Origin: a virus
Virus record (IMG/VR): IMGVR_UViG_3300019884_000012
Location: 1-25,051 of that record
Length of the DNA: 25,051 nucleotides
Reading direction: 5' to 3' (one strand)
Positions 1 through 14,691 of this stretch are shown here, piece after piece. The notes beneath the pieces were generated by a model. It made no database searches. It was given only the letters and a program-made list of their open reading frames with translations, and was not told the DNA's origin. The first letter of the stretch is position 1. The number at the start of each line of letters is the position of its first letter. A program made the position numbers and the translations under genes.

Positions 1-93
1 GAACCCGTGGCGATGTGCCCATCTTTGGATGAACCTGATACGGGTATTGATCCAGATTCTTTCTCTGAACCATTCAATCCTAAACTTAGGCAT
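1..93 (-). CDS. Small protein, start only (cut by window edge)
   Basis: An ATG at position 93 opens a leftward frame that stays open to the window edge, giving 31 residues beginning MPKFRIEWFRERIW. The start sits directly after the TAA of the membrane protein gene at 94-279, and a GGGAGG ribosome-binding site lies about nine bases upstream inside that gene. The visible part is rich in Arg, Trp and Ile and therefore strongly basic. The product is not recognised. It continues the leftward operon of small genes. Confidence 0.6.
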   Translation of the reverse strand, partial: MPKFRIEWFRERIWINTRIRFIQRWAHRHGF

Positions 94-279
94 TTAGCCG
101 AACCTCCCGCTGTCATAGTAACTCTTGCCTTTCCTTCTAACCATGCCTTTATTCTGACGCTTCCATTCCTTATCCTCACGTACTCGATACGCTTTCGCAC
201 GATAGTACGTCCAGTTACATAACTGAACTATCAGGAACAGCGCCATAAATGTGACAACCACAATGATATCCGAATCCAT
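94..279 (-). CDS. Small single-pass membrane protein
   Basis: This encodes 61 residues from the ATG at 279. That start is preferred over upstream in-frame starts because a GGGGGTG ribosome-binding site lies just before it. Residues about 4-23 (DIIVVVTFMALFLIVQLCNW) form one clear transmembrane helix. A strongly basic tail of about 35 residues (YRAKAYRVREDKEWKRQNKG) follows, so the topology is predicted to be N-out, C-in. The function is unknown; small inner-membrane proteins of phages often act in host takeover, exclusion or lysis timing, but nothing here decides between these. A candidate promoter lies upstream at 357-385. Confidence 0.65.
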   Translation of the reverse strand: MDSDIIVVVTFMALFLIVQLCNWTYYRAKAYRVREDKEWKRQNKGMVRRKGKSYYDSGRFG

Positions 280-334
280 AGCACCCCCGTTAAGAACATC
301 GTGCCATATGTTACATAGTGGTCGTTCTTTAAAA

Positions 335-348
335 AGCCCCACAGGGCT
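335..348 (-). terminator. Short GC hairpin followed by a T-run (leftward)
   Basis: On the minus strand AGCCC, a TGTG loop and GGGCT are followed by TTTTT, the form of a small intrinsic terminator. It lies 34 bases beyond the stop of the gene at 382-732. It also falls only a few bases downstream of the predicted start point of the promoter at 357-385, so it could be either a terminator for the upstream operon or an attenuator for that promoter. The stem has only five pairs, so strength is uncertain. Confidence 0.4.
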
Positions 349-356
349 ATCTACTC

Positions 357-385
357 ATTGTAGCATACGGTCAGGCTGAAGTCAA
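357..385 (-). promoter_or_regulatory. Leftward sigma70-type promoter (P1)
   Basis: Reading the minus strand, TTGACT (380-385) is separated by exactly 17 bases from TACAAT (357-362). Each hexamer matches the vegetative consensus at five of six positions. It lies between the gene ending at 382 and the membrane protein gene starting at 279. The same arrangement recurs at 6996-7024 and 7752-7780, which raises confidence that all three are real. Confidence 0.6.
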
Positions 386-732
386 GTGCGGGGATCGGGC
401 TTAGGATACGTTCGCCTACAACTCACCTTCAGCAACCTACATACTTGTCCACGATAACGTCTGATTCCTGACCGCATTTCCACACCATGTTTAACACGCG
501 GGAATCTAAGATGAATCAACTCATGCGTGAAATCATCAATGCTCTGTGGATGCGGTGCTCTCTTTCTTAGGTCACGACAAGCAAACCTAGGCATCCAAAC
601 TTCAGCACGATACGGTGGTCTGAATACCAGCACGTATGCGTTAGCACTCGCGGTCCACTCAATCGGACAGTGAACACTCACTGCTGGCTTACCTGTGAAC
701 ATCAGCGCAGCGTAAGTGAGAATCTCAACCAC
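382..732 (-). CDS. HELxH metallopeptidase-like small protein
   Basis: This encodes 116 residues from a GTG start at 732, preceded by AAGGAG at nine bases. Residues about 69-83 read DDFTHELIHLRFPRVKHG, which contains the HExxH zinc-binding motif of gluzincin-type peptidases plus a further His a few residues on. This resembles the HELxH-L-P-HG pattern of minimal WLM/SprT/YgjP-like peptidases. The N-terminal part is predicted to form beta strands. Known enzymes of this type are small zinc-dependent proteases. Activity here is inferred only from the motif, and a third ligand is not certain. The start overlaps the end of the preceding gene by eight bases (GTGGTTGA), so translation is probably coupled. 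Confidence 0.65.
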   Translation of the reverse strand: MVEILTYAALMFTGKPAVSVHCPIEWTASANAYVLVFRPPYRAEVWMPRFACRDLRKRAPHPQSIDDFTHELIHLRFPRVKHGVEMRSGIRRYRGQVCRLLKVSCRRTYPKPDPRT

Positions 733-907
733 TTATCTCTGCTCCTTTAGTAATGAACTCTGACTCATTGAGCATAGTTTCCACCAAAACAGCCAACTGA
801 CCCTTTGGCGAAGGTTGATCGCCTTCGTGGACTGTCTCTTCCACTACTTCCTTACACAAATCCTTCAGTACGTGATATCTAGGTTCGCTGATTTCTATAC
901 GCCTCAC
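725..907 (-). CDS. Small acidic protein, unknown
   Basis: This is about 60 residues if it begins at the GTG at 907, which forms a GTGA overlap with the stop of the preceding gene. A TTG at 922 would add five residues. The visible sequence (RRIEISEPRYHVLKDLCKEV, then a Glu-rich stretch and a Leu/Val helix) suggests a small helical protein. No family is recognised. The stop overlaps the GTG of the HELxH protein gene, placing it firmly in the leftward operon. Confidence 0.55.
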   Translation of the reverse strand: MRRIEISEPRYHVLKDLCKEVVEETVHEGDQPSPKGQLAVLVETMLNESEFITKGAEISG

Positions 908-1089
908 GATGTAACTCGCCAAAACTCAATGCTGACCAGTTCATCCGTCTTAATCAGCCTGTGCCTCTTAATCTTCTCCAGGGCTTTGGTGAATCCTGAG
1001 TTGATGTTCTTTGCGTAGACTTCCATGAAATCTGTAATTGTAACTCCATGCCTGTCTTGCAGCTTGTATCTGAACTCAAGTAGTTTCAT
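904..1089 (-). CDS. Small basic protein, unknown
   Basis: This encodes 61 residues from the ATG at 1089, beginning MKLLEFRYKLQDRHGVTITDF. It starts 14 bases inside the preceding gene and has only a weak ribosome-binding site, so it probably depends on translational coupling. The middle is Lys/Arg-rich (KALEKIKRHRLIKTDELVSI) and probably helical, followed by a beta-like end. The function is not recognised. Confidence 0.55.
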   Translation of the reverse strand: MKLLEFRYKLQDRHGVTITDFMEVYAKNINSGFTKALEKIKRHRLIKTDELVSIEFWRVTS

Positions 1090-1315
1090 CGTCCCACTGA
1101 CTACCCTTCTTGAACCCCTTTAGAGTGACGCCGTACTCGTAGCTTACCATTCCAGTGTTGATATCGGGGGACAATTCCCGTTCGACGAGAGCTAGAGCAT
1201 CTTCCAAGTTGTCTGTTTCGTAGAAGATACCATGATCTGACTCACCCTGCCACGAAGAAACTTCGTACTTGCTCTCATGTACTTTATTCAGGACCAGACC
1301 GTTATCTGCGCTCAT
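1076..1315 (-). CDS. MSADNG-family small protein, copy 1
   Basis: This encodes 79 residues from the ATG at 1315, with AAGGAGG ten bases upstream. It is a clear paralogue of the gene at 1469-1690. Both begin MSADNGL, carry WQGES near residue 23-28, have an EAL/DAL helix, then E-x-SPD, and end SYEYG-x-x-L-x-GFK. I recall similar small proteins in actinobacteriophages, but a database search was not possible. Its start overlaps the stop of the 54-residue gene between the two paralogues by ATGA. The function is unknown; the two copies may come from a local duplication. Confidence 0.7.
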   Translation of the reverse strand: MSADNGLVLNKVHESKYEVSSWQGESDHGIFYETDNLEDALALVERELSPDINTGMVSYEYGVTLKGFKKGSQWDDETT

Positions 1316-1476
1316 TCGTCCTCATCCTCCTTTGTCCAACCGTCGAACCAGTTCCAACCTTTAGTACCTGGATCTTCGCAGTGAGCCTGTGCCTCTTCAA
1401 GAGTCAGTCCAGTAAGCACTACTTCGTTCTCACCATCCTGACGAAATCGAATGATCTTGTAGGTTGGCTCACTCAT
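1312..1476 (-). CDS. 54-residue conserved-looking protein
   Basis: A leftward frame from the ATG at 1476 to the TGA at 1312-1314 encodes 54 residues, below common length cut-offs. It starts MSEPTYKIIRFRQDGENE, has a helix LTLEEAQAHCEDP, and ends with an aromatic acidic tail (GWNWFDGWTKEDEDE). The IIRF strand plus LTLEEAQAHC-x-DP signature is one I associate with small actinophage proteins. GGGAGG lies ten bases upstream. It overlaps both neighbours (8 bases at its start, 4 at its stop) and sits between the two MSADNG paralogues. The function is unknown. Confidence 0.75.
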   Translation of the reverse strand: MSEPTYKIIRFRQDGENEVVLTGLTLEEAQAHCEDPGTKGWNWFDGWTKEDEDE

Positions 1477-1690
1477 TCTTGAAGCCTCCCAGGTATAGCC
1501 CGTATTCGTAACTAGGCATACCCATAGGGTCAGGGCTCATTTCATTCTCAGCGAAGATAAGAGCCTCCATCACGTCATTACTAGTGAAGATGATCTCACC
1601 CTCACTCTCTCCCTGCCAAGCGAGTACCTGAAACTGGTCAGCATAGTCGCTCTTGACCCGCTTCAGAGTAAGACCGTTATCTGCGCTCAT
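1469..1690 (-). CDS. MSADNG-family small protein, copy 2
   Basis: This encodes 73 residues from the ATG at 1690, with AAAGGTGG upstream. It is a paralogue of the protein at 1076-1315. Shared blocks are MSADNGL, WQGESE/D, a helix (VMEALIFAENE), SPD and SYEYG-GF. This copy is shorter at the C-terminus. The start overlaps the stop of the preceding gene (ATGA). Nothing in the sequence assigns a function; the lack of Cys clusters or membrane segments suggests a soluble cytoplasmic protein. Confidence 0.7.
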   Translation of the reverse strand: MSADNGLTLKRVKSDYADQFQVLAWQGESEGEIIFTSNDVMEALIFAENEMSPDPMGMPSYEYGLYLGGFKNE

Positions 1691-1923
1691 TCTTCCACCT
1701 TTCTGAGATTGCCGACGTCTACTGCCAGAACACTGACGAAAATCTGCTCTTTGCCACCACTCTCGTAAAGATACCGTGGACGGTCAAGCGCAATCAAAGC
1801 AGCCACTTGTGGTTTATCATCAGCCTTAGATTGCCGCATGTAGAATCCCCATCCGATGATGGTGCCAGTATCTTTACTGACACTGTCCAGCACCACCCAA
1901 TCACCATACTTAAACCCGTTCAT
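1687..1923 (-). CDS. Small beta-rich protein, unknown
   Basis: This encodes 78 residues starting at the ATG at 1923, which shares a base with the TGA of the upstream gene (TGATG). A GTG at 1932 would add three residues. The sequence alternates hydrophobic and polar residues (YGDWVVLDS, DTGTIIGWGFY, VAALIALDRPRYLY, EQIFVSVLAVDVGNL), which fits a small SH3- or KOW-like beta barrel. That fold is only an inference. The function is unknown. Confidence 0.55.
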   Translation of the reverse strand: MNGFKYGDWVVLDSVSKDTGTIIGWGFYMRQSKADDKPQVAALIALDRPRYLYESGGKEQIFVSVLAVDVGNLRKVEE

Positions 1924-2195
1924 CAGTGACACCTTTCCTTAACAGCGTCAATGATCACGTCATAGCGGCGCACCCATTCCTTGTGCCACTCAACATTACC
2001 ACCCGTTTTAATCTGTTCAGGCGTGGCACGACCGGATTCAATGTAGATGATCCAATCGTTGTGAATCCTGTGCGCTTCACTAGCATACCTTGTGGCATCA
2101 TCGCACTGAACTTCCATGCGCGCGCTCGCCATAGGCGACAAGACCAGCGCAAACAGAATAATGACTACTAAGTAGCCATGAATAAGGGTCTTCAT
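1923..2195 (-). CDS. Small secreted protein with signal peptide
   Basis: This encodes 90 residues from the ATG at 2195, which overlaps the preceding stop as TAATG. Residues 1-25 form a classical signal peptide: MKTLIHG, a hydrophobic core (YLVVIILFALVLSP), then MASA as a likely signal peptidase site. The mature part is about 65 residues, mostly helical, with Cys near each end (EVQCDD and KERCH) that could form a disulfide. Export by a phage accessory gene suggests an action at the cell envelope, such as superinfection exclusion, but this is inference. Confidence 0.65.
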   Translation of the reverse strand: MKTLIHGYLVVIILFALVLSPMASARMEVQCDDATRYASEAHRIHNDWIIYIESGRATPEQIKTGGNVEWHKEWVRRYDVIIDAVKERCH

Positions 2196-2533
2196 TAATA
2201 ATCCTCCATCGCCATATCCATCAGCGACTTGTCGTGACCAGGCAACTTACCTTGGTCGATACCAAACTCAGTTGAGTCCCAATGCCATCCTGAGAAGTGC
2301 CAGACGACTTTGGGTTCCTTACCTGCCTCAACTTCCCAGACCAGAATCCGATCATCCTCAGGATCAGGAACTAGGATTTCTTCGGCATCCTCCTCGTAAC
2401 CCGACACGTAATCCTTAGCAGGCTTGCCGTAACCCTTCTCTTCAGCCAGATACTCCAGCGCCGTATCCAAGCTATCGGTAGCCCAAGGCGGGTCTTCCAA
2501 ATCACCCTTAAACTCTATTACGTAAACTTTCAT
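2195..2533 (-). CDS. Acidic protein, unknown
   Basis: This encodes 112 residues from the ATG at 2533. It is strongly acidic, with stretches such as YEEDAEEILVPDPEDD. It begins with a beta strand (MKVYVIEFKG), followed by a helix (DTALEYLAEEKG) and Trp-rich strands (VWHFSGWHWD). The strong negative charge could suggest DNA mimicry or binding to a basic partner, but nothing confirms this. The start overlaps the preceding stop by ATGA, and the stop overlaps the next start by TAATG. Confidence 0.6.
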   Translation of the reverse strand: MKVYVIEFKGDLEDPPWATDSLDTALEYLAEEKGYGKPAKDYVSGYEEDAEEILVPDPEDDRILVWEVEAGKEPKVVWHFSGWHWDSTEFGIDQGKLPGHDKSLMDMAMEDY

Positions 2534-2706
2534 CCCTGTAGCCTTTCAATCTCATTATCAAGCTGCCGCAACCACTCTCGCATATCAAGAGCGGCACGCT
2601 TAATTTCCGTATGGTCCACGATCAGAGCGACTTTTTCTTGGTCTGCACCGTGACTGTGGAACCACCGCTTAGGCACATACGTATCCGTCTTGAAAACAGA
2701 CGCCAT
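2530..2706 (-). CDS. 58-residue protein, unknown
   Basis: The ATG at 2706 (MASVFKTDTYVPKRWFHSHG) is preferred over an in-frame ATG at 2724. It overlaps the preceding stop as TAATG and has GGAGGG about nine bases upstream. The C-terminal half is a probable amphipathic helix (EIKRAALDMREWLRQLDNEI). No family is recognised. Confidence 0.6.
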   Translation of the reverse strand: MASVFKTDTYVPKRWFHSHGADQEKVALIVDHTEIKRAALDMREWLRQLDNEIERLQG

Positions 2707-3044
2707 TATTTGTACTCCCTCCATGCGCGAAGAACATCACCAGGCTTAAGCACGAAGTCATGATCCCTAGTACGCTGGAACCTATGCTCTTGCTTAAGTG
2801 TCTGTTGACCCTTCTTAATCAGTGGAATGTCCCAATCCAGATAGTAGATAGGAGTCCACGCAAAGTCCACGTAGATACCTTCTGGGAGATCACCAAACGT
2901 CTTACCATCCTGATACTCAGTCTCAGGCGCAGCTTCCTTAACTGCCGCCGTGTACATACAACCGAGCGTAAAGTAATCCCATCCCCAAGGCGGGTTAAGC
3001 GTCTCACCATCCCGTTTAATCTCTGTGACTAGCGGCATCTTCAT
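2706..3044 (-). CDS. Conserved-looking soluble protein, unknown
   Basis: This encodes 112 residues from the ATG at 3044, with GGTGGTG just upstream; a second ATG lies two codons later. It starts MKMPLVTEIKRDGETLNPPW and contains many aromatic residues (WGWDYFTLGCMY, FAWTPIYYLDW). It ends with a basic segment and VLKPGDVLRAWREYK. It overlaps the preceding gene by 29 bases. The DGETLNPPW start resembles the PPWATDSL segment of the gene at 2195-2533 only in passing. The function is unknown. Confidence 0.55.
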   Translation of the reverse strand: MKMPLVTEIKRDGETLNPPWGWDYFTLGCMYTAAVKEAAPETEYQDGKTFGDLPEGIYVDFAWTPIYYLDWDIPLIKKGQQTLKQEHRFQRTRDHDFVLKPGDVLRAWREYK

Positions 3045-3213
3045 TCACCACCTGAATTAGCACTTGCCCTAGTCTATCGTCGGGGAAGAACACTGACAAT
3101 GCCCTCTCCCGCAAAAGCTTGACAATATCTTCATCTGTGAGTGATACTGCGACAGACGCTAGATAAGTAATTCCACCTAGAGTATCGTGGTTTACCTGTT
3201 CGATCTTGCCCAT
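3016..3213 (-). CDS. 65-residue protein, unknown
   Basis: The ATG at 3213 (MGKIEQVNHDTLGGITYLAS) overlaps the preceding TGA as TGATG, so it is preferred over the in-frame start at 3240. The protein has a helix with acidic residues (LTDEDIVKLLRERALSVFFP) and ends NEDAASHRD. No family is recognised. Confidence 0.55.
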   Translation of the reverse strand: MGKIEQVNHDTLGGITYLASVAVSLTDEDIVKLLRERALSVFFPDDRLGQVLIQVVNEDAASHRD

Positions 3214-3476
3214 CAGTGACCACACCCTATCTGGCCGCAACCATGACAGAACTCATCTTCATCCAGTTCTGTCAGATCATCCTTATCAACTTCAAAGACA
3301 CAATCATCCCCGACCATCACCATCTGTACTAGACTATCGTGGTCGTATTCGATACCAGTCCACTCATAGTCCTCATCCCGAACCTTGACAGGGCCGAGCG
3401 TGTACCATGCGATACCGGGAGAGTCTGCAACCTTGTAGTACTTGCTGGTATCAGCTGTAGATTGCATGATTTTCAT
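3213..3476 (-). CDS. Acidic protein with C-terminal Cys/His cluster
   Basis: This encodes 87 residues from the ATG at 3476; a nearby in-frame ATG at 3467 is possible because AAAGGA is very close to the first. The C-terminus reads EFCHGCGQIGCGH, a C-x2-C-x4-C-x-H cluster that could bind one zinc ion. The preceding region is very acidic (VDKDDLTELDEDE). I recall such endings in other actinophage proteins but could not check. The function is unknown; a small metal-binding or protein-docking role is possible. Confidence 0.6.
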   Translation of the reverse strand: MKIMQSTADTSKYYKVADSPGIAWYTLGPVKVRDEDYEWTGIEYDHDSLVQMVMVGDDCVFEVDKDDLTELDEDEFCHGCGQIGCGH

Positions 3477-3624
3477 AGTCCTTTTCGATTACGATGACTT
3501 CATCGTCATCATCGATATGATCGTTGGCCTGTTCTTCGGCATGACCAAAATCATCTGCATCAAAGAACATCGACCAGCGACTGCCATCGCGGACGTGTCT
3601 TATCTTGACTTCATACTTTTCCAT
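3451..3624 (-). CDS. 57-residue acidic protein, unknown
   Basis: The start at 3624 (MEKYEVKIRHVRDGSRW) has GGGGAGG ten bases upstream and is preferred over a farther in-frame ATG at 3654. The protein contains an acidic run (HIDDDDEVIVIEKDYENH) between two strand-like segments. It overlaps the next gene by 26 bases. The function is unknown. Confidence 0.55.
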   Translation of the reverse strand: MEKYEVKIRHVRDGSRWSMFFDADDFGHAEEQANDHIDDDDEVIVIEKDYENHAIYS

Positions 3625-3626
3625 TC

Positions 3627-4049
3627 TTATCGAGCCTCCCCGCTTTCTGGGCAAGAACAGGCATCCTTCATTTGTGGATACCCACCAGTGATTTCTGGAC
3701 CCATATCAATGTATCCCGTTTCGATGTAAGTTTCTTCAAAATTCTCACTACCTCGAAAGTCAATCTTGCCATAACGACCTGAGGTAATCCTTGCATCAGG
3801 GTAGAACTGAAAGATCCGTCGGTAGAAATCACGGTGTCCATGCCAACAGACAGCATAAACTTTCTTGCCTTCTTGTTGCCATCCCTGGCTTGTGCGCTGA
3901 TAGGGATTCTCTGATCCATCTTCAGGTGGTAGCAGCCTTCCCTCAACACGGCAGCCAGCACCATTAGACACGTCCCTACCCTCGAACCTACAGCCGATCT
4001 GCTTTGCATACATTTCGACGTTCTTCATGGGTACGTCAAATATCTTCAT
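3627..4049 (-). CDS. Conserved-looking Cys-containing protein, unknown
   Basis: This encodes 140 residues from the ATG at 4049, which overlaps the preceding TGA by ATGA. The first 70 residues include IGCRFEGRDVSNGAGCRVEG. The second half has the segment VCWHGHRDFYRRIFQFYPDA followed by YRGxxxFEE-like elements (DFRGSENFEETYIETGYIDMG). From memory this resembles an uncharacterised family in Streptomyces phages, but that is unverified. The C-terminus DACSCPESGEAR may be disordered. This is the longest gene of the leftward accessory operon. Confidence 0.65.
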   Translation of the reverse strand: MKIFDVPMKNVEMYAKQIGCRFEGRDVSNGAGCRVEGRLLPPEDGSENPYQRTSQGWQQEGKKVYAVCWHGHRDFYRRIFQFYPDARITSGRYGKIDFRGSENFEETYIETGYIDMGPEITGGYPQMKDACSCPESGEAR

Positions 4050-4234
4050 CCGAATCCCAATACCTTTGCAGCCAACTTATTACGAGGATTCCTCTCGTAC
4101 TCTATCTCGGCAGTATCTCGCAAATCCTCGAGATATGCGCAGAATTCTAGGTAGTAGTGCTTGTGCCTATCATCGTCTGACAGCCCAGCAGCTACACCTT
4201 GTAGATATCCCAATATAAATGAGATTGTTTTCAT
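4046..4234 (-). CDS. 62-residue helical protein, unknown
   Basis: This encodes 62 residues from the ATG at 4234, sharing its first base with the TAA of the preceding gene (TAATG) and preceded by GGGAG. It begins with a mildly hydrophobic segment (MKTISFILGYLQGVAAGL) that could be a short membrane-associated helix. A charged helix (DRHKHYYLEFCAYLEDLRDT) follows. No family is recognised. Confidence 0.55.
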   Translation of the reverse strand: MKTISFILGYLQGVAAGLSDDDRHKHYYLEFCAYLEDLRDTAEIEYERNPRNKLAAKVLGFG

Positions 4235-4416
4235 TACTCTCCCTGCTTTGCTTCGTAAAACTCGATCATTCTTTCGGTGCCGTACTCATCTACCAATTCT
4301 TGACTGATCCTCAGCCAGTCAGAACGACTCCACGTAAGCTTATCCAGCCGCAGCAACTCAAAGTCCTTCTGCGCCACACAAGTCTCACAACTACATGTTT
4401 GACCACACATAATCAT
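4234..4416 (-). CDS. Small protein with N-terminal Cys cluster
   Basis: This encodes 60 residues from the ATG at 4416, overlapping the preceding stop (TGATG). The N-terminus MIMCGQTCSCETC places four Cys within ten residues, suggesting a metal site. The rest is helical (DWLRISQELVDEYGTERMIE). In-frame sequence upstream of 4416 is unlikely to be coding because it lies inside the preceding gene. The function is unknown. Confidence 0.55.
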   Translation of the reverse strand: MIMCGQTCSCETCVAQKDFELLRLDKLTWSRSDWLRISQELVDEYGTERMIEFYEAKQGE

Positions 4417-4634
4417 CAGTCCTGTGCGGGACAACCCCGCATACAAGGCTGACCAACTTGTGCTCCGCAATCATTACACGGAACAGGATATGGCTGAATC
4501 TTTACGCGCTCTGGATGGATTACCTTGTTGAGAATACAGTTCATCCAGGCGATTCCGGCTATAGTAGCGATACCAATGCTTGTCTCAGCAATTGCTACTT
4601 CCATGCGCTCTTCATGTGTGAGCAGCTTAGCCAT
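4416..4634 (-). CDS. Membrane-associated small protein with CxxCGA zinc-knuckle
   Basis: This encodes 72 residues from the second ATG of an ATGATG pair, with AAGGAGG upstream. Residues about 14-36 (AIAETSIGIATIAGIAWMNCIL) are hydrophobic enough for a membrane helix. The C-terminus carries VPCNDCGAQVGQPCMRGC. This matches the CxxCGAxxGxPC knuckle that I recognise from several actinobacterial and actinophage small proteins, where it is taken to be a zinc site. The function is unknown. Confidence 0.6.
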   Translation of the reverse strand: MAKLLTHEERMEVAIAETSIGIATIAGIAWMNCILNKVIHPERVKIQPYPVPCNDCGAQVGQPCMRGCPAQD

Positions 4635-4830
4635 CATCCTCCTCCTTCCACTCTAGGATAGTCCAGAGGATCGCCTTTCGCACTTCCTGATCAAAACTCT
4701 TAGCACGAATCAAGATAGCATTGACTTCCACGATACCCTCGCCGTGTACGTGGTAGGCATCCCAGGCATCACTAAAAGTCTTCTCACGATCGGATGCCCT
4801 AGAAACCTCACTTGTTTTTACTGGCATCAT
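4627..4830 (-). CDS. First gene of the leftward small-gene operon, unknown
   Basis: This encodes 67 residues from the ATG at 4830 (or the adjacent ATG at 4827), with GGGAG seven to ten bases upstream. It is soluble and mixed-charge, with a probable C-terminal helix (EVRKAILWTILEWKEEDDG). It is the first gene after the inverted-repeat region. I see no good promoter immediately upstream, so transcription may come through from farther right. No family is recognised. Confidence 0.55.
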   Translation of the reverse strand: MMPVKTSEVSRASDREKTFSDAWDAYHVHGEGIVEVNAILIRAKSFDQEVRKAILWTILEWKEEDDG

Positions 4831-4858: not shown

Positions 4859-4930
4859 GGAGGTTAGGCTCCTACTAACCGGGCCTGTCCACCCGAGGCG
4901 ACTCTTATCGTATTCGGTCACCTAACCTCC
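4859..4930. repeat. Inverted-repeat element E1
   Basis: GGAGGTTAGG (4859-4868) and CCTAACCTCC (4921-4930) are perfect 10-base inverted repeats enclosing 52 bases. The span of 72 bases suggested a tRNA, but no T-arm, anticodon arm or CCA could be fitted on either strand. A small CGGG/CCCG hairpin is possible in the loop. Confidence 0.65.
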
Positions 4931-5077
4931 CCGCTACGCTAATATGACACTTCAGGCTCACCATCCACTGTTGGATAGCTGCTCACATGCCCTCACTAGC
5001 GTTATTGTTGTGGTGAGACACAACGCACGCCAACTGCCATACTAGCGTAGCGGGCAGATTAGATTTTATGGAGGTTA
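4921..5077. repeat. Inverted-repeat element E2 (bipartite stem)
   Basis: The inner arms CCGCTACGCTA (4931-4941) and TAGCGTAGCGG (5043-5053) are perfectly complementary. The flanking outer arms TAACCTCC (4923-4930) and GGAGGTTA (5070-5077) can also pair, leaving a 16-base bulge on the right. The 101-base loop contains a GTTGTG/CACAAC hairpin and an ATCCA/TGGAT hairpin. The outer left arm is the same sequence that pairs in E1, so E1 and full E2 exclude each other. Confidence 0.6.
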
Positions 5078-5112
5078 AGCATCTTGTGGTTCTGCATAAT
5101 TGCCTAACCTCC
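5070..5112. repeat. Inverted-repeat element E3
   Basis: GGAGGTTA-a-GC (5070-5080) and GC-c-TAACCTCC (5102-5112) pair with one mismatch around a 21-base loop. Both arms are shared with neighbouring elements: the left with E2 and the right with E4. Confidence 0.55.
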
Positions 5113-5218
5113 CTAAGCTAGTGGAGGGGATTGAGAGTCGCAGCCATCACTTAGATGCCGTATGCGTTCCGAATACGGACTTCATCTCACCCATTGTCCA
5201 CTAGCTTAGGCAGGTTAG
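5104..5218. repeat. Inverted-repeat element E4 (115 bp)
   Basis: CTAACCT-C-CCTAAGCTAGTGGA (5104-5125) pairs with TCCACTAGCTTAGG-C-AGGTTAG (5197-5218). This gives 21 pairs interrupted by one C.C mismatch. The 71-base loop holds a second hairpin (CCGTATGCG, TTC, CGAATACGG with one mismatch) extended by AGATG/CATCT. The element ends nine bases before the stop codon (5228) of the next leftward gene. The layout of outer stem, C.C mismatch and inner stem recurs in E5 and E6. Confidence 0.7.
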
Positions 5219-5227
5219 TTACCCGCC

Positions 5228-5443
5228 TTAGTCTCTCAAATTCACGTCCAAGATTTTCCATGCGTGCTTAGGAAAATACTCAAATGCATTAAACATAACA
5301 ACATTTACGCTTGTAGCGAACACTGTTACGTCAGCCCAAAGCATACCGGGACTACTACCTCTAGGCGCAATCCTTACTTTGTAGAAATGACGCCTGGGTG
5401 TCTTGAGTGGTAGTCTTACCCTTGTACTAGATTCACTGTGCAT
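5228..5443 (-). CDS. Small basic protein between repeat elements
   Basis: This encodes 71 residues from the second ATG of an ATGATG pair (5446/5443), with AGGAGG six bases upstream. It starts MHSESSTRVRLPLKTPRRHF, is basic, and continues with a beta-like hydrophobic stretch (MLWADVTVFATSVNVVMFNAF). No family is recognised. It is flanked by inverted-repeat elements on both sides, E4 after its stop and a smaller stem plus E5 before its start, so it forms one unit of the gene-element array. Confidence 0.55.
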   Translation of the reverse strand: MHSESSTRVRLPLKTPRRHFYKVRIAPRGSSPGMLWADVTVFATSVNVVMFNAFEYFPKHAWKILDVNLRD

Positions 5444-5465
5444 CATTAGCCTCCTAGTTGTGAGA

Positions 5466-5531
5466 TAGCTAAGCAGGGGACGTGTAGACAACCTGCTCTC
5501 CCACGGAACCATCTACATCATTACTTAGCTA
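5466..5531. repeat. Inverted repeat with pseudoknot potential (E4b)
   Basis: TAGCTAAG (5466-5473) and CTTAGCTA (5524-5531) are 8-base inverted repeats. Inside, AGCAGG (5472-5477) pairs with CCTGCT (5492-5497). Within that hairpin's loop, TGTAGA (5483-5488) pairs with TCTACA (5512-5517), giving the geometry of an H-type pseudoknot. The right arm is shared with element E5. Confidence 0.45.
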
Positions 5532-5645
5532 CCCTGAACTACACTAACCCTGAGACTCTATTTCAGCAACCCTCAGCGTTCCGATTCCGGGGCAGGCGCC
5601 TTTATTAGCTATTGCACCCGATTAGTGTAGTTCAGGCTAGCTAAG
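5524..5645. repeat. Inverted-repeat element E5 (122 bp)
   Basis: CTTAGCTA-C-CCTGAACTACACTAA (5524-5547) pairs with TTAGTGTAGTTCAGG-C-TAGCTAAG (5622-5645). This is 23 pairs with a single C.C mismatch between an 8-base outer and a 15-base inner stem. The 74-base loop contains a CTGAG/CTCAG hairpin and the palindrome AGGCGCCT. The right end merges into the stop codon of the next leftward gene (TAG at 5646-5648). Confidence 0.7.
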
Positions 5646-5651
5646 CTAGCC
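5635..5651. repeat. 17-bp palindromic repeat, copy 1
   Basis: GGCTAGCTAAGCTAGCC is palindromic except at its centre and is repeated exactly at 5985-6001, 350 bp away. This copy includes the stop codon of the gene at 5646-5867. The two copies bracket one gene plus element E6. Confidence 0.6.
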
Positions 5652-5867
5652 ACCTACTCTTTCACGTCTGTGACGCATTTCGTGAAACTCTGGAAACTCT
5701 GTGAACATCTGATATTGATGCACAATATCCTTAGTAGCACTAAGGATATGACCTTCTGCGCCATTCAACAGAACAGCACTATCTCTACCGTAGTGCCTAT
5801 GATCCGTAAATTCATCCGTGAACTCTGTGAGTAGTCCTTGCAGTTCCTTTAATCTTTCAACTGTCAT
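5646..5867 (-). CDS. 73-residue protein in the gene-element array
   Basis: The ATG at 5867 has GGGAGG seven bases upstream. The sequence is MTVERLKELQGLLTEFTDEF, then a His-rich helix (HRHYGRDSAVLL) and an aromatic tail (QYQMFTEFPEFHEMRHRRE). It looks like a soluble helical protein. No family is recognised. It lies between element E5 (directly after its stop) and E6 (upstream of its start), within a 350-bp unit bounded by exact 17-bp repeats. Confidence 0.55.
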   Translation of the reverse strand: MTVERLKELQGLLTEFTDEFTDHRHYGRDSAVLLNGAEGHILSATKDIVHQYQMFTEFPEFHEMRHRRERVGG

Positions 5868-5881
5868 TCTTTCCTCCCGTT

Positions 5882-5996
5882 GCTTAGCTACCCTAAGCTA
5901 GTGAGTTACCGCAATACAGGCACGTTACCCATCGGCGGTTGAGTAGTCAGACTCGTCAGCGACTCACTGCTACTCACTAGCTTAGGCTAGCTAAGC
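5882..5996. repeat. Inverted-repeat element E6 (115 bp)
   Basis: GCTTAGCTA-C-CCTAAGCTAGTGAGT (5882-5906) pairs with ACTCACTAGCTTAGG-C-TAGCTAAGC (5972-5996). This is 24 pairs and again one C.C mismatch at the same relative place. The inner arm shares CCCTAAGCTAGTG with E4 and the outer arm is shared with E5. The 65-base loop holds an ACCGC/GCGGT hairpin (5908-5912 with 5935-5939). The element ends seven bases before the stop codon of the leftward gene at 6003. Confidence 0.7.
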
Positions 5997-6001
5997 TAGC
6001 C
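5985..6001. repeat. 17-bp palindromic repeat, copy 2
   Basis: This is an exact second copy of GGCTAGCTAAGCTAGCC (first copy 5635-5651), directly next to the stop codon of the gene at 6003-6101. Direct repeats flanking a single gene and its element would allow loss or gain of the unit by recombination. Confidence 0.6.
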
Positions 6002-6002
6002 G

Positions 6003-6101
6003 TTAGTTCTTGACGATGTAATGCCTTACTTCACCATCTTCGAGAGTTACTCGATAAACAGTGAACTCCTTAACTTCTAGGATTATTTCGGACTTAGCCA
6101 C
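6003..6101 (-). CDS. 32-residue protein overlapping the secreted protein gene
   Basis: A GTG at 6101 opens a frame of 32 residues: AKSEIILEVKEFTVYRV then TLEDGEVRHYIVKN. The pattern of two strands and an acidic turn looks like real coding sequence rather than a shadow. The start overlaps the stop of the secreted protein gene by eight bases (GTGGCTAA), and TAAGG lies nine bases upstream. Alternatively the frame may be longer and start inside the upstream gene, but the upstream part looks like the shadow of the signal peptide. The function is unknown. Confidence 0.4.
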   Translation of the reverse strand: MAKSEIILEVKEFTVYRVTLEDGEVRHYIVKN

Positions 6102-6282
6102 GCTTGTAGACCTTACGGACACTTGCGCGGATATCGCGATCCCTGCGATCAAGCGGGAACTGATAAACGACGTTGTGCAGACTCCTAAGAGTAGGACTGA
6201 TAGGAGCAGTCTGGGCACTAGCGGTATTAGGCGCAATAACTGCCGTTGCTGCAATAACCAGTGTTGCAATTGCCCTACGCAT
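6094..6282 (-). CDS. Small secreted protein with signal peptide
   Basis: This encodes 62 residues from the ATG at 6282, with GGAGG ten bases upstream. Residues 1-23 are a textbook signal peptide: MRRA, a hydrophobic core (IATLVIAATAVIAP), then NTASA before a likely cleavage site. The mature part of about 39 residues begins QTAPISPTLRSL and is basic at its end (DRRDRDIRASVRKVYKRG). Export suggests a periplasmic, cell-surface or membrane-directed role. It sits between element E6 and the E7-E9 cluster. Confidence 0.6.
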   Translation of the reverse strand: MRRAIATLVIAATAVIAPNTASAQTAPISPTLRSLHNVVYQFPLDRRDRDIRASVRKVYKRG

Positions 6283-6300
6283 TGTTTTACTACCTCCGTT

Positions 6301-6400
6301 GTTAGGTTACTGAGCTAGCAAAAGCAACTACACGGTCGTCTTATAGGTTGCAACCATGCAACTATGCGGTCGTCTTACATTGCTAGCTTAGTAACCTAAC
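6301..6400. repeat. Inverted-repeat element E7
   Basis: The arms at 6301-6321 and 6380-6400 are 21 bases long and complementary except for one G.T pair, which would be a G.U wobble in plus-strand RNA. The 58-base loop contains a near-perfect direct repeat (GCAACTACACGGTCGTCTTA at 6324-6343 and GCAACTATGCGGTCGTCTTA at 6358-6377) separated by the palindrome GGTTGCAACC (6346-6355). Confidence 0.65.
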
Positions 6401-6470
6401 GATTGCTAGCCGGGCCTTGCACCCCGTCCAAGTCAATTCGCTAGATTGGTCAATCGTTAGGTTACTAAGC
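6386..6470. repeat. Inverted-repeat element E8
   Basis: GCTTAGTAACCTAACGATTG (6386-6405) is a perfect 20-base inverted repeat of the sequence at 6451-6470, with a 45-base loop. Its left arm overlaps the right arm of E7 and its right arm overlaps the left arm of E9, so the three stems cannot all form together. Confidence 0.65.
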
Positions 6471-6562
6471 CAGTCACCAGAATTGGATAGCTAATCCCAT
6501 TCCACCGTTGCTAGCAAAACAGCTTCAGCATCTGGCATTGCATTGACTGGCTTAGTAACCTA
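6458..6562. repeat. Inverted-repeat element E9
   Basis: TAGGTTACTAAGCCAGTCA (6458-6476) and TGACTGGCTTAGTAACCTA (6544-6562) are perfect 19-base inverted repeats around a 67-base loop. The element lies about 45 bases beyond the stop of the leftward gene at 6608. Confidence 0.65.
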
Positions 6563-6607: not shown

Positions 6608-6946
6608 CTACGCAGCAGCAGTAGCCTGCGCAGCGACTCGCTCGATATGCAGAATGAAAACCTCATCACCCTGACGCTTAACGAGGATAGGACCCTCAGG
6701 ATTCTCTTCAGAAACGAGGATTCCAGCCTCAGTAGCGACACCGCGAAAGCCCTGATAGAGAGCCGAAGCTTTCTTATCCTTGAACTCCAGCGGCCACACC
6801 TCGCGAGGATCAACACCAGCCTCATCCGACTCGACAAACTGAGTCAGCTTAGGCTTGTAGACATTCCGCGCCCGACCCGCCATAAGCTCAGCAATACGCT
6901 CAGGCGAAAGACCCGTCATGCCACCATTGCCATTAGTACCGGCCAT
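6608..6946 (-). CDS. LSPE-motif protein A, unknown
   Basis: This encodes 112 residues from the ATG at 6946, with GGAGG nine bases upstream; longer in-frame starts would lie upstream of the promoter at 6996-7024. The N-terminus has a Gly/Asn-rich linker (MAGTNGNGGMT) followed by GLSPERIAELMAGRARN. That helix is also present as GLSPEKIQSLMSGARKK in the gene at 7454-7720. The rest includes DPREVWPLEFKDKKASALYQ and a beta-rich end (EGPILVKRQGDEVFILHIERV). The function is unknown. It is led by the strongest promoter in the window, so high early expression is expected. Confidence 0.65.
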   Translation of the reverse strand: MAGTNGNGGMTGLSPERIAELMAGRARNVYKPKLTQFVESDEAGVDPREVWPLEFKDKKASALYQGFRGVATEAGILVSEENPEGPILVKRQGDEVFILHIERVAAQATAAA

Positions 6947-6995: not shown

Positions 6996-7024
6996 ATTGT
7001 AGCAGGAGAAAGTCTCCATGTCAA
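6996..7024 (-). promoter_or_regulatory. Leftward sigma70-type promoter (P2)
   Basis: On the minus strand a perfect TTGACA (7019-7024) is followed after exactly 17 bases by TACAAT (6996-7001). Transcription would begin near 6989 and read into the LSPE-motif gene at 6608-6946. The -35 box lies in the loop, and the spacer in the stem, of the hairpin at 7001-7048. Confidence 0.7.
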
Positions 7025-7048
7025 GTTTCGTGGAGACTTTTTTCTGCT
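7001..7048. terminator. Long hairpin overlapping promoter P2
   Basis: The arms at 7001-7018 (AGCAGGAGAAAGTCTCCA) and 7031-7048 pair over 18 bases with two mismatches around a 12-base loop. On the plus strand the right arm includes TTTTTT. The hairpin touches the TAG stop (7047-7049) of the leftward gene at 7047-7211, so it may terminate that transcript. At the same time it encloses the -35 box and spacer of P2. A combined terminator, promoter and operator role is plausible but inferred. Confidence 0.5.
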
Positions 7049-7211
7049 AAACGGCCAACTCTCTCCCGTTCTTGAAAACCTTAGCGATGTAGTTACCTTG
7101 ACTGTTAGAACTACGCCACCGCAACGCAAACCTAGCGCCATCCGTGACAGAGGGAAAATCCCTAGTCAGGATACTACTAGCACCAGCAATGGTGTATTTA
7201 ACCGTTACCAT
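7047..7211 (-). CDS. 54-residue basic protein, unknown
   Basis: The ATG at 7211 (MVTVKYTIAGASSILTRDF) has AGGAAGG about seven bases upstream and is preferred over the in-frame start at 7229. The protein looks like a compact alpha/beta unit: a strand, a helix (SVTDGARFALRWRSS) and a strand (NYIAKVFKNGRELAV). No family is recognised. The stop codon abuts the long hairpin that carries P2. Confidence 0.6.
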   Translation of the reverse strand: MVTVKYTIAGASSILTRDFPSVTDGARFALRWRSSNSQGNYIAKVFKNGRELAV

Positions 7212-7453: not shown

Positions 7454-7720
7454 TTACTGACAATACAAAACTACGTCGTCTTGCCAGTTAGGCGCGTAAA
7501 ACCGCCTACCATTCGGAGCGGGGTATGTGCGACCCTTGCGACTTCTTCGTGCAGTGCCGGTTTTTCCTTCAAAAGCTCCGACTCCATTATTCAGGTCGCG
7601 CAGTGATACTTTTTCTAGCCCGGATTCTGTACGAATCAGAGCAAAGCCTTTCTGTGCGGGGTTTTTCTTACGAGCCCCCGACATTAGACTTTGAATCTTT
7701 TCGGGGCTAAGTCCTTCCAT
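7454..7720 (-). CDS. LSPE-motif protein B, unknown
   Basis: This encodes 88 residues from the ATG at 7720, with AAAGGGG nine bases upstream. A longer in-frame start at 7780 lies at the -35 box of promoter P3 and is rejected. The N-terminus MEGLSPEKIQSLMSGARKK matches the start of the protein at 6608-6946. The middle is KGFALIRTESGLEKVSLRDL. The end is very basic and aromatic (ARRSRKGRTYPAPNGRRFYA), so nucleic-acid binding is possible. The function is unknown. Confidence 0.65.
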   Translation of the reverse strand: MEGLSPEKIQSLMSGARKKNPAQKGFALIRTESGLEKVSLRDLNNGVGAFEGKTGTARRSRKGRTYPAPNGRRFYAPNWQDDVVLYCQ

Positions 7721-7751: not shown

Positions 7752-7780
7752 ATTTTACAGTACGAATACTGTAAAGTCAA
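7752..7780 (-). promoter_or_regulatory. Leftward promoter (P3) with internal palindromic operator
   Basis: On the minus strand TTGACT (7775-7780), 17 bases, and TAAAAT (7752-7757) form a near-consensus promoter for the gene at 7454-7720. A perfect palindrome, TTTACAGTA-CGAA-TACTGTAAA (7754-7775), fills the spacer and reaches into both hexamers. A repressor bound there would block polymerase. The half-site ACTGTAAAG also occurs at 8326-8334 in the divergent control region. Confidence 0.7.
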
Positions 7781-7790
7781 GTCTAGGAGC

Positions 7791-7823
7791 AGGGTATAGG
7801 GCGGAATATCCGCCCTATACCCT
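7791..7823. terminator. Perfect 15-bp hairpin after the gene at 7834
   Basis: AGGGTATAGGGCGGA (7791-7805) and TCCGCCCTATACCCT (7809-7823) are perfectly complementary with a three-base loop. The hairpin lies ten bases beyond the stop of the leftward gene at 7834-8232 and just before promoter P3. There is no T-run on either side. A hairpin-only terminator of the kind proposed for actinobacteria, or an RNA 3'-end stabiliser, is the best guess. Confidence 0.6.
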
Positions 7824-7833
7824 ACTATGTATG

Positions 7834-8232
7834 TCAGTCGTAGTCCTTTGTGGTGCCGATAATGTGTTGATACTTCAGAGTATCCGACTGTGGTGTCTCC
7901 ACCGCTGACGTAGTAGTGCTGGCGCGGCGTGAGGTAATATTCACTACCTCATTGACGCTAGGATCGTAGAGGTTCCGCCTGCGATATGTGCAACCGCTGC
8001 CCATATCATTCTCAGTACCCGGCGCGACACCAACTACACGCCCTGACTGACTCCAGAAGTCACGACTAGCGCGAACCTTCCGATTGTGATTAGGAACAAA
8101 GTCTGGCGGAAGATCACCACTGCCGACCTCGATGATGCGACTATCGAAAATCGAAGTAAACTCCTCGATCAGACGCTGATTCCTACGCTCCTGATCCTCC
8201 CGCTCGATCCGCCGTTTCTGACTGGCGTTCAT
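7834..8232 (-). CDS. 132-residue protein, unknown
   Basis: The ATG at 8232 has CGGAGGG seven to eight bases upstream. The N-terminus is a highly charged helix (MNASQKRRIEREDQERRNQR). The middle (SRDFWSQSGRVVGVAPGTEN) and a Thr/Ser-rich segment (ITSRRASTTTSAVETPQSD) look like a small folded domain and a linker. No family is recognised. It is the first leftward gene left of the divergent control region and ends at the perfect hairpin at 7791-7823. Confidence 0.6.
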   Translation of the reverse strand: MNASQKRRIEREDQERRNQRLIEEFTSIFDSRIIEVGSGDLPPDFVPNHNRKVRASRDFWSQSGRVVGVAPGTENDMGSGCTYRRRNLYDPSVNEVVNITSRRASTTTSAVETPQSDTLKYQHIIGTTKDYD

Positions 8233-8842: not shown

Positions 8843-10262
8843 GCCTGGTGTAGATTTTCCCACGCTGCTCGATGCAATCGAGTTTAAGCCCCATTCCGAT
8901 GGACAGCGTGAGTATCTCTTTAGTGACGCAAGATTCAACATTCCTTGTTGTGGCCGACGTTGGGGAAAATCACAGGCCGCTGGCAGGAGAATGACGTACA
9001 AGTCGTTTGTGCCCGATTCGTATAACTGGATTGTTGGCCCGACTTACGGCCTGGGAGAGAAGGAGTTCCGCGTAGTCTGGAACGACTATGAGAAGTTGGG
9101 ACTCCTAAAACACTGCAAGAAGAGTTACGATGCCAAGCAAGGTAATATGCGTATTCTTACTCCGTGGAAGTCTGTAGTACAGGTAGTAAGCGCAGAGAAA
9201 CAGGCATCACTACTAGGAGAAGGACTTTCTCATGTCATCATGTCAGAGGCCGCCCAACACAGTCGATCTACGTGGGAGCAATATATTGAACCCGCCCTAT
9301 CCGACCTACGTGGATCAGCCGACTTTCCCTCCACTCCAAAGGGTTACAACTGGTATCACGGGGTATGGATGCTTGGACAAAGTTCGGCACCGAACAGTAC
9401 CTCTACACATCACCCTGATTATCGCAGTTGGAGCTTTCCTACTTGGACTAACGCCGTTCGTTATCCTGGTGGTCTAGAGAATGACGAGATTCAAAGAGTA
9501 AGACAGATCGTAAGTAAGATTTTCTTCGATCAGGAGTATGGCGCCAGCTTTACTGCTGTCACAGGGAGTATTTATGAAGAGTGGGAAGAGAGTCTCCACG
9601 TACAACCAGTCGTCTACAATCCTGCCCTCCCCAATTACCAAGCCTACGACTACGGATTCGTCAATCCGTTTGTGTGTCTGGATATACAAGTGGCAGCGGA
9701 CGAATCTGTTCACGTATGGCGTGAATACTATGGGCGCTATAAGTCAACAATGGAACATGGATACGCTCTAAGGGATAGGGAGAACCCACCTAAGTATAGA
9801 GTAGATGCAAGATGGGGCGATCCGCGTGGAGCAGACGAAGCTGCTACTCTTGCGCTCATCATCGGTTACATCGGCTCGTTTGATGTTCCGTGGAAACAGT
9901 CTGTAGAAGAGATTAGGCGTCGTCTGAAGGCTCGGCCGCAGCCTAGACTAGTAATTGATCCTAGTTGTACTAACCTCGTTCGTGAGATGCCACAGTTGCA
10001 TGTAAAGCCACTGGCTAGGAACTCACAGCAGGATCTAAATGAGCAGGGCGGCGATGGCAACCTTCAGCATAAGGTTGACGATCACTGTTGCGATGCTCTG
10101 AGATATTTCATTGGCCCACACTTTGTGGCTGGTGCTGGGTCCCATCTGACTGATGTATATGGAGAGAACTACACAGGTAGCGAAAGCTATGACGTGTTTA
10201 CAACTCTAACGGGAGACACATCGGTAATTCTTGATGAGGAGTTGAGTCTACGTGGGATTTAG
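8817..10262 (+). CDS. terL: Large terminase subunit (ATPase and nuclease), apparent ATA start
   Basis: This is the DNA-packaging motor. The frame is open from 8793, but its first ATG (8991) falls after the Walker A motif GRRWGKS (8952-8972), so the real start is upstream. No ATG, GTG or TTG exists there. The ATA at 8817 lies eight bases after AGAAGGG and is the best start, giving 481 residues. The Walker B-like strand is HVIMSEAA, with Ser where Asp is usual and the catalytic Glu kept. Nuclease motifs are visible as AYDYGFVNP, RWGDPRGADEAA and DDHCCDALRY. The C-terminus overlaps the portal start by 11 bases. The family call is very secure; the start codon is inferred. Confidence 0.9.
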   Translation: MATATPQAEPGVDFPTLLDAIEFKPHSDGQREYLFSDARFNIPCCGRRWGKSQAAGRRMTYKSFVPDSYNWIVGPTYGLGEKEFRVVWNDYEKLGLLKHCKKSYDAKQGNMRILTPWKSVVQVVSAEKQASLLGEGLSHVIMSEAAQHSRSTWEQYIEPALSDLRGSADFPSTPKGYNWYHGVWMLGQSSAPNSTSTHHPDYRSWSFPTWTNAVRYPGGLENDEIQRVRQIVSKIFFDQEYGASFTAVTGSIYEEWEESLHVQPVVYNPALPNYQAYDYGFVNPFVCLDIQVAADESVHVWREYYGRYKSTMEHGYALRDRENPPKYRVDARWGDPRGADEAATLALIIGYIGSFDVPWKQSVEEIRRRLKARPQPRLVIDPSCTNLVREMPQLHVKPLARNSQQDLNEQGGDGNLQHKVDDHCCDALRYFIGPHFVAGAGSHLTDVYGENYTGSESYDVFTTLTGDTSVILDEELSLRGI

Positions 10263-13683: not shown

Positions 13684-14691
13684 ATGTATGATCCTGGTAC
13701 ACTTTACCAAGACCCTATCCTGACCAACTTCTCTGTTGGTTATCAGGACCAGGCTCTCTATGGTGAGCGTATCCTTCCTGTTACTCCTGTTAGAACTCAG
13801 AGTGGTAGGTATCGCGTCTTTGATAGGTCGAACTGGCTGATTCATGAGTCTAGGCGTGAACCGGGTACGGTTGCTAACGAGATTCAGGGTGGGAAGTGGA
13901 GTGAGGACTTCTTCGCTACTGAAGAGCATTCACTTCAGGCTCCTATTCTTGATGAAGAAAGGCAGCAGCTTACTTCTCAGGGTGGACTTGCCAACGATGT
14001 ATTCGGTGGTGATCTTTCCATTGATCCTGAGTTGGATGCTACTGCTCTGGTTATGCGTTCGCTGCTGCTTGATCATGAGCTAGTGGTATCAACTCTAGTT
14101 CGTAATCCGGCGAACTACGGCGCACCTAATAAGATCACTCTTGTTGGTGCTTCGCAGTTTGACGATTACACTGGTGGCGAGGCTTCTACGTCTAACCCTG
14201 TTAGTGCGATCATGGTTGGTATGAGAGCCATCTATGCTGCTACTGGTCGTTACCCGAACACGCTGGCAGTTCCTGGTTTGGGTATGCAGTACATCGAGAA
14301 CCATCCTCGTGTTGTTGCTCGTTTCAAGAACTTCCAGTTGAGTGCTCCTGAGGCGTTCCGTATTCTTACGGGATTCGATGGAGTTATTCTCCCGGTTGAT
14401 TCGGTCTACAACGCTGCGGATCATATTGATGCTACTGAGGCAATTACTTCATTCTGGGGTAAGGACGTTTGGCTCGGTATCGTTGATCCTAACCCTGGTC
14501 AGAAGACGTTCACGTTTGGTAAGACGTTTGCACAAATCTACCCTGATGGTACTGTTCGGCCTACGGATAGATGGCGTGAGGAAGCTCGCAAGGCGGACGT
14601 CGTTCGTACTTCATACAAGTGGGATACGAAGATTGTTGCTGCTGGCGCAGGCTACCTGATCACAAACGCCTTCTCTGCCGGTGCTTTCTAA
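13684..14691 (+). CDS. Major capsid protein
   Basis: This encodes 335 residues from the ATG at 13684, again after AAAGGGGGTG. Position after protease/scaffold and decoration genes, length and composition fit the HK97-fold capsid subunit. Segments include YQDQALYGERILPVTPVRTQ, WSEDFFATEEHSLQAPILDE, MVGMRAIYAATGRYPNTLAV, IENHPRVVARFKNFQLSAPE and a C-terminal beta region ending ITNAFSAGAF. The strong ribosome-binding site fits its need for high expression. Confidence 0.88.
   Translation: MYDPGTLYQDPILTNFSVGYQDQALYGERILPVTPVRTQSGRYRVFDRSNWLIHESRREPGTVANEIQGGKWSEDFFATEEHSLQAPILDEERQQLTSQGGLANDVFGGDLSIDPELDATALVMRSLLLDHELVVSTLVRNPANYGAPNKITLVGASQFDDYTGGEASTSNPVSAIMVGMRAIYAATGRYPNTLAVPGLGMQYIENHPRVVARFKNFQLSAPEAFRILTGFDGVILPVDSVYNAADHIDATEAITSFWGKDVWLGIVDPNPGQKTFTFGKTFAQIYPDGTVRPTDRWREEARKADVVRTSYKWDTKIVAAGAGYLITNAFSAGAF

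Follow-up and report, generated by a model that had tools for sequence, protein, structure and literature searches.

What are the long inverted repeats that fill one gap after another between the small genes of an uncultivated soil virus? The question is raised by positions 4859-6562 of IMG/VR record IMGVR_UViG_3300019884_000012, an entire virus record of 25,051 bp (hereafter "the window"). A first-pass annotation, made from the letters of the window, had suggested structured RNAs, hairpin DNA sites for a phage protein, mRNA 3'-end stabilisers or recombination sites. Our results show that the repeats are intercistronic RNA hairpins and form a real family in uncultivated soil myoviruses; no description of it was found in Rfam or in the literature searched. 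The structure of the hairpins, the strand on which they act, their position and the conservation of their pairing are each supported by tests. By analogy with known systems, there is about an even chance that they are processing sites for host RNase III.

The hairpin chain in the window

The hairpin region lies inside a leftward block of small genes (30-140 amino acids), which runs from about position 8200 down to 1. Seven strong stems of 19-30 bp sit in the gaps of these genes between 4920 and 6562. A scan with exact seeds found seven inverted repeats with arms of at least 17 nt in 4930-6562, compared with none in nine shuffles and a single one in the tenth. In the rest of the window, the same scan returned only one weaker repeat, at 7000-7049, which overlaps a promoter. 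Folded as the leftward transcript, the seven strong stems had minimum free energy (MFE) z-scores of -6.3 to -7.9, and none of 200 shuffles was equally stable. Their loops measure 45-85 nt, when the stems are extended across wobbles and mismatches. The pairings are the following:

4859-4930, minus strand: weak pairing of 10 bp (4859-4868/4921-4930), RNA z -3.2; a lone arm pairs with arm 1 of element 1
4920-5064, minus strand: element 1, arms 4920-4949/5035-5064, G.G mismatch on the transcript, loop 85 nt
5066-5116, minus strand: short cross-pairing hairpin (5066-5081/5101-5116), z -4.8; its second arm is common to element 2
5104-5218, minus strand: element 2, arms 5104-5125/5197-5218, G.G mismatch, loop 71 nt
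5524-5645, minus strand: element 3, arms 5524-5549/5620-5645, G.G mismatch, loop 70 nt
5882-5996, minus strand: element 4, arms 5882-5906/5972-5996, G.G mismatch, loop 65 nt; ends 15 nt ahead of the start codon of gene C (listed below)
6299-6402, minus strand: element 5, arms 6299-6321/6380-6402, A.C mismatch on the transcript, loop 58 nt
6383-6473, minus strand: cross-pair of element 5 arm 2 and element 6 arm 1, arms 6383-6405/6451-6473, loop 45 nt; an alternative pairing
6458-6562, minus strand: element 6, arms 6458-6476/6544-6562, perfect stem, loop 67 nt; its counterpart in the related phage G003 carries compensatory changes

With seven strong stems and two weaker pairings that beat shuffles, the earlier count of at least nine inverted repeats between small leftward genes holds. 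A tenth pairing, around 5464-5474/5524-5532, was no better than shuffles (z -0.97). The arms had also been described as alternating along the DNA, and the overlapping, shared arms of neighbouring hairpins bear this out. Arm 2 at 6380-6402 overlaps arm 1 of the next hairpin, as does 6451-6476, and in the clearest case (elements 5 and 6 with the cross-pair 6383-6473) four arms give three pairings that are mutually exclusive as a full set. The alternation arises because neighbouring elements share a core, and in the window whole arm segments, so that the second arm of one element can pair with the first arm of the following one. The chain is, in our reading, a tandem series of canonical hairpins to which cross-pairs are added; the weak pairing at 4859-4868/4921-4930 is probably another cross-pair. 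The MFE structure of a whole gap favours the cross-pair in one arrangement.

Strand, position and pairing across related phages

Relatives were gathered by capsid-based searches of viral contigs, many of them 54-60 kb long. The 46 related contigs, read in pieces, and the window make 47 records, all oriented by the capsid gene. L009, L084 and L134 belong to a single record, G006/G007 as well as G047/G048 are near-duplicates, and identical arms were counted once. A strand-symmetric scan of the window and its relatives found 123 intergenic stems, compared with 5 in shuffles, and 94 of the 123 lie between two leftward genes. Per 100 kb, there are 6.6 stems outside the structural region and 0.31 inside it. 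No such stems were found in T7, an Arthrobacter phage (Wheelbite, 50 kb) and nine unrelated viral loci. By a stricter score, at least one element occurs in 21 of the 47 records (duplicates counted once, fragments included), most of the long records among them, with six to eight elements each in G027, G006, G053 and the window.

The elements share a common anatomy. The arms are mostly 20-25 bp across phages, with a peak of stem length at 22-23 positions among the 69 strong stems, and the loops are long and variable, mostly 20-120 nt. A central mismatch (15 times G.G, six times C.A, three times G.A) allowed thirty stems to be anchored; it separates an outer stem of mostly 6-9 bp from an inner one of mostly 12-15 bp. 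On the transcript, the consensus of their 5' arm reads (C/U)(U/A)[G.G]CNURAGCUA. Only this mid-stem core recurs, while the outer 7-9 bp differ from element to element. The loops are slightly more structured than shuffles, with no significant difference between strands, and are probably mostly filler.

This combination escapes the usual searches. The best Rfam match had an E value of 0.43, far under the gathering cut-off. An exact-core pattern scan of viral contigs gave chance matches in nine contigs, mostly within predicted genes and without comparable stems; pattern searches are unsuited to these elements because the arms are too variable. A MITE-like or REP/BIME repeat was considered and rejected, as neither conserved ends nor a conserved whole unit was found. 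REP/BIME and Correia/NEMIS repeats also place alternating inverted units between genes, and NEMIS hairpins are reported RNase III substrates. However, those are repeated families with conserved ends, whereas here the arms vary.

The strand bias points to RNA. On the leftward transcript of the 69 strong stems, G.U pairs outnumber A.C 72 to 30 (p 4e-5), and G.G mismatches outnumber C.C 28 to 3 (p 5e-6), both with pairs treated as independent. Stems containing G.G number 26 of 69 and those containing C.C three. Because the scan handled both strands alike, the bias is not a detection artefact, and it indicates that selection acts on the leftward RNA. Selection on the hairpins at the RNA level is well supported, and we regard it as very likely. 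The same asymmetry bears on sites acting as DNA, for example integron-like attC hairpins or other recombination sites, with each small gene a cassette. Integron attC sites are imperfect inverted repeats with a variable top, located between small genes, and the elements here resemble them in outline, being long, imperfect and variable at the top, with small codirectional genes on either side. Yet the asymmetry obeys RNA pairing rules, the outer arm ends are not conserved, a 1x1 mismatch replaces the extrahelical bases of attC, and the tyrosine recombinase PF00589 is absent in 18 records, several of them perhaps incomplete. The R-box consensus is absent at most element ends; by eye, GTTRRRY / RYYYAAC boxes were seen only at window element 5. 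Recombination sites are therefore highly improbable. Among the options of the first-pass annotation, structured RNAs gain from the strand-asymmetric wobbles and mismatches, from compensatory changes and from the place between stop codon and ribosome-binding site. Hairpin DNA sites are disfavoured by the G.U/A.C and G.G/C.C asymmetry, and recombination sites by the absent recombinase, the unconserved arm ends and the fixed mismatch.

The position of the stems relative to genes is also non-random. Many begin 0-30 nt after the upstream stop codon. For 25 of 69 stems, the next 60 nt hold a ribosome-binding site and a start codon, compared with 49 of 392 shifted positions, and stem-to-start distances cluster at 13-18 nt, although some stem-to-gene distances are uncertain since the genes were called with a simple purpose-written caller. 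U-runs after the stems are not enriched over shifted positions, which indicates that the hairpins are not intrinsic terminators. Being very stable and placed directly behind stop codons and ahead of ribosome-binding sites, the stems could instead act uncut, as barriers that shield the 3' end of the upstream gene's mRNA from exonucleases and the 5' end of the downstream gene's. We consider such uncut stabilisers improbable, as a fixed mismatch and a core would be superfluous in a plain stabiliser, whose loop would usually be short. The 3'-end stabilisers proposed earlier are nevertheless compatible with the data and may form part of the outcome.

To follow the pairing through evolution, the genes between which the hairpins lie are needed:

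4627-4830, minus strand: gene A, 67 amino acids, last gene in the stretch with hairpin-filled gaps
5228-5443, minus strand: gene B, 71 amino acids, without known homologue
5646-5867, minus strand: gene C, 73 amino acids, without known homologue
6094-6282, minus strand: gene D, 62 amino acids, signal-peptide-like start (by eye), without known homologue
6608-6946, minus strand: gene E, 112 amino acids, conserved in related phages, with a hairpin almost always following it

Gene E homologues were chosen without using the repeats, and nine distinct ones had a flank present. The DNA 3' of them carries a strong hairpin in eight of the nine flanks, with mostly unrelated arms. Among pairs of leftward homologues (up to 75% identity), both members had a 3' hairpin 53 times, compared with 14 expected from the marginal rate, although these pairs are non-independent and dominated by the gene E family. 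For rightward pairs, the same count gave 8 observed and 4 expected. Compensation is seen directly in two alignable pairs. When window 6458-6562 is compared with its G003 counterpart, both sides of a base pair have changed with pairing kept in three cases, of which one lies in the main stem and two in the apical stem; the four broken pairs all lie outside the main stem. G014 and G015 keep the outer stem and the mismatch while the inner arm is replaced, with five to six two-sided changes that preserve pairing; a small hairpin nearby adds four more (total 10). Uncompensated arms, or gaps without repeats, in relatives had been named beforehand as signs against the elements; the relatives keep hairpins with compensatory pairs.

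Such changes have a possible mutational source. Template switching can make perfect stems and apparent compensatory changes (PMC8794818), and the arms might be functionless by-products of it, written as reverse-complement copies in non-coding gaps. The shared alternating arms resemble such events, as does an arm swap between G014 and G015 (L088 1560-1960; L112 1-300): within about 90% identical DNA, a small stem changes from CCACG/CGTGG to AGTGG/CCACT, like an arm exchange, possibly by a template-switch or inversion event. However, a process acting on DNA would not favour G.U over A.C or G.G over C.C on one strand, and would not keep a core, or a place beside homologous genes, across phages. 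New arms may plausibly come from template switching during replication, but the strand asymmetry and the core cannot be accounted for in this way, which speaks against template switching as the sole cause; that the arms are nothing but its by-products is very unlikely.

Two further observations concern gene E. A second copy is present in G006 (L138, L139) and in G022 (L100, L102), with a hairpin following three of the four copies, the exception being L102. In the nearest relative, G001 (93% terminase identity), contig L126 (1-97) stops inside gene E, right before the hairpin chain. The strong hairpins may break assemblies at that point.

Host RNase III and others as possible readers of the stems

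Across the records, extended -10 promoters of host type (TTGAC-N15-TGNTANNNT) number 89 leftward and 2 rightward, which suggests that the structural genes probably depend on a different type of promoter or on a phage factor. One of the leftward promoters immediately precedes gene E, a position at which it is also found in G001 and G003:

6996-7024, minus strand: extended -10 promoter, TTGACA-17-TACAAT, 11 of 12 consensus positions

Judged by its motif, this promoter (7024-6996) would drive genes E to A leftward. The promoter type suggests that host RNA polymerase probably makes the RNA of the elements, as a segment of early leftward mRNA.

A processing pathway could then run as follows. Host RNA polymerase would transcribe the small genes as polycistronic RNA from the extended -10 promoters, and each gap RNA would fold into a stem of about 20-25 bp, equal to two A-form turns, whose core contains a single central mismatch that is usually G.G. 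Host RNase III would bind and cut the stem, splitting the long phage mRNA into smaller pieces. The cut would free the upstream message after its stop codon and leave the downstream message a short leader before its ribosome-binding site, and stem remnants may shield the new RNA ends. The arms would turn over fast, possibly via template switching, with pairing retained. Early timing, the cutting itself, the role of the mismatch and the stabilisation are what we infer here.

Several known systems lend plausibility to cutting by RNase III. No RNase III domain was recognisable among the proteins encoded by these phages, so the host enzyme would act, as it does on T7 early mRNA, which it cuts at five sites (PMC4858673). 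The T7 sites (R0.5, R1, R1.1, R1.3 etc.) are likewise intercistronic, several per operon of small genes. The T7 gaps folded here have a mid-interrupted stem of about 20 bp just ahead of ribosome-binding sites, like these elements, and in both cases an inner sequence is conserved across the sites of one genome. In B. subtilis, the enzyme cleaves intramolecular duplexes of 10-36 bp whose cut sites may be as much as 505 nt apart (PMC11780869), which indicates that long loops are no obstacle. Those sites resemble ours in their long intervening RNA, but they are chromosomal and scattered, form no tandem chain, and a G.G core is not reported for them. E. coli RNase III prefers C-G/G-C between its cuts (PMC11780869), which the AGCU centre of the core could supply. 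Furthermore, the RNAs produced by processing can retain hairpins that stabilise them (PMC5371410).

Other points weigh against RNase III processing. Some elements lack the mismatch or the core, and many gaps between leftward genes hold no such hairpin. T7 stems are split by an asymmetric internal loop and mostly have short loops, unlike the nearly continuous stem with a single 1x1 mismatch, the long loops and the different core seen here; at the threshold that gives eight repeats in the window, T7 gives none. Finally, a conserved G.G mismatch and sequence core are not a known RNase III requirement, and another reader could be responsible.

Such a reader provides the strongest rival to RNase III processing: a phage or host RNA-binding protein that recognises the G.G core sequence-specifically, for antitermination, like the HK022 put RNA, or for translation control, with the stem as an uncut platform. 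The mismatch and core are conserved in the same orientation in different phages, as such a protein would need. On the other hand, the arms beyond the core vary freely, some elements do without G.G, no candidate protein was identified, and so many elements per operon would be an unusual design for antitermination. We hold this explanation to be rather unlikely. The same doubt applies to a dedicated phage RNA element family, in which a specific phage or host protein would read the G.G core at many early-operon gaps, for per-gene control or antitermination, while neighbours switch between exclusive pairings. Cutting of the RegB type, which belongs to T4 and targets GGAG, was rejected, because GGAG is found in the 3' arm of only some elements.

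Should RNase III processing be correct, systematic intercistronic processing hairpins would extend from the T7-type phages, where they are best known, to an unrelated lineage of uncultivated soil myoviruses, in which their conserved core is a distinct one. The function may resemble that of T7-type sites, to which the elements are not homologous. The earlier statement that no described phage element has this form stands for the form, which differs from the T7 sites, but not for the function, for which those sites are analogous. Another arrangement near genes is found in the SAS/ESAS repeats of cluster K mycobacteriophages, where a conserved 13-bp element overlaps the ribosome-binding site and 17-bp imperfect inverted repeats lie upstream. 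The hairpins described here are a clear case in which pairing and position are conserved and sequence is not, and neither sequence search nor Rfam picks up elements of this sort. With many fast-evolving stems doing the same task, they form a natural set for learning what RNase III, or another reader of double-stranded RNA, recognises.

Surrounding genes, promoters and other repeats

The rightward genes of the window comprise a large terminase (8991-10262), portal, head protease, major capsid protein (13684-14691), tail sheath and tape-measure, a set that marks the phage as a myovirus. Its cultured relatives are distant, with less than 30% identity in the best capsid match (e.g. Arthrobacter Laroyevirus, about 25%), and a nucleotide search against near and distant phages returned no match. 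A host search with the capsid protein against a genome collection gave one distant contig at 35% identity. No convincing known phage or Pfam family was found for genes A-E, nor a convincing homologue of genes A-D in the family libraries and loci searched. In window 1-4600, the leftward genes mostly abut or overlap, and hairpin elements are absent.

Repeats of other kinds accompany the promoters. The -35 box of the gene E promoter lies in the loop of an inverted repeat (7000-7049, minus strand; L126; L134), whose arms differ yet stay complementary in the window, G001 and G003. The transcript begins downstream of this repeat, which is therefore likely to be an operator working at the DNA level, with a repressor specificity that changes. 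At 7752-7780 (minus strand), another leftward promoter-like site (TTGACT-17-TAAAAT) overlaps a palindrome, TTTACAGTA-TTCG-TACTGTAAA, which is likely to be the operator of a repressor. Just upstream of this promoter, between the genes at 7454-7720 and 7834-8232, is a perfect 15-bp hairpin with a 3-nt loop (7791-7823).

A second kind of inverted repeat occurs in G004, G005 and G008, with a near-constant loop of 31-34 nt and arms GCTAG/CTAGTAC (L136 802-865 and 1430-1491; L106 313-374; L107 213-395 and 2031-2115). In G008, it sits beneath a predicted rightward open reading frame.

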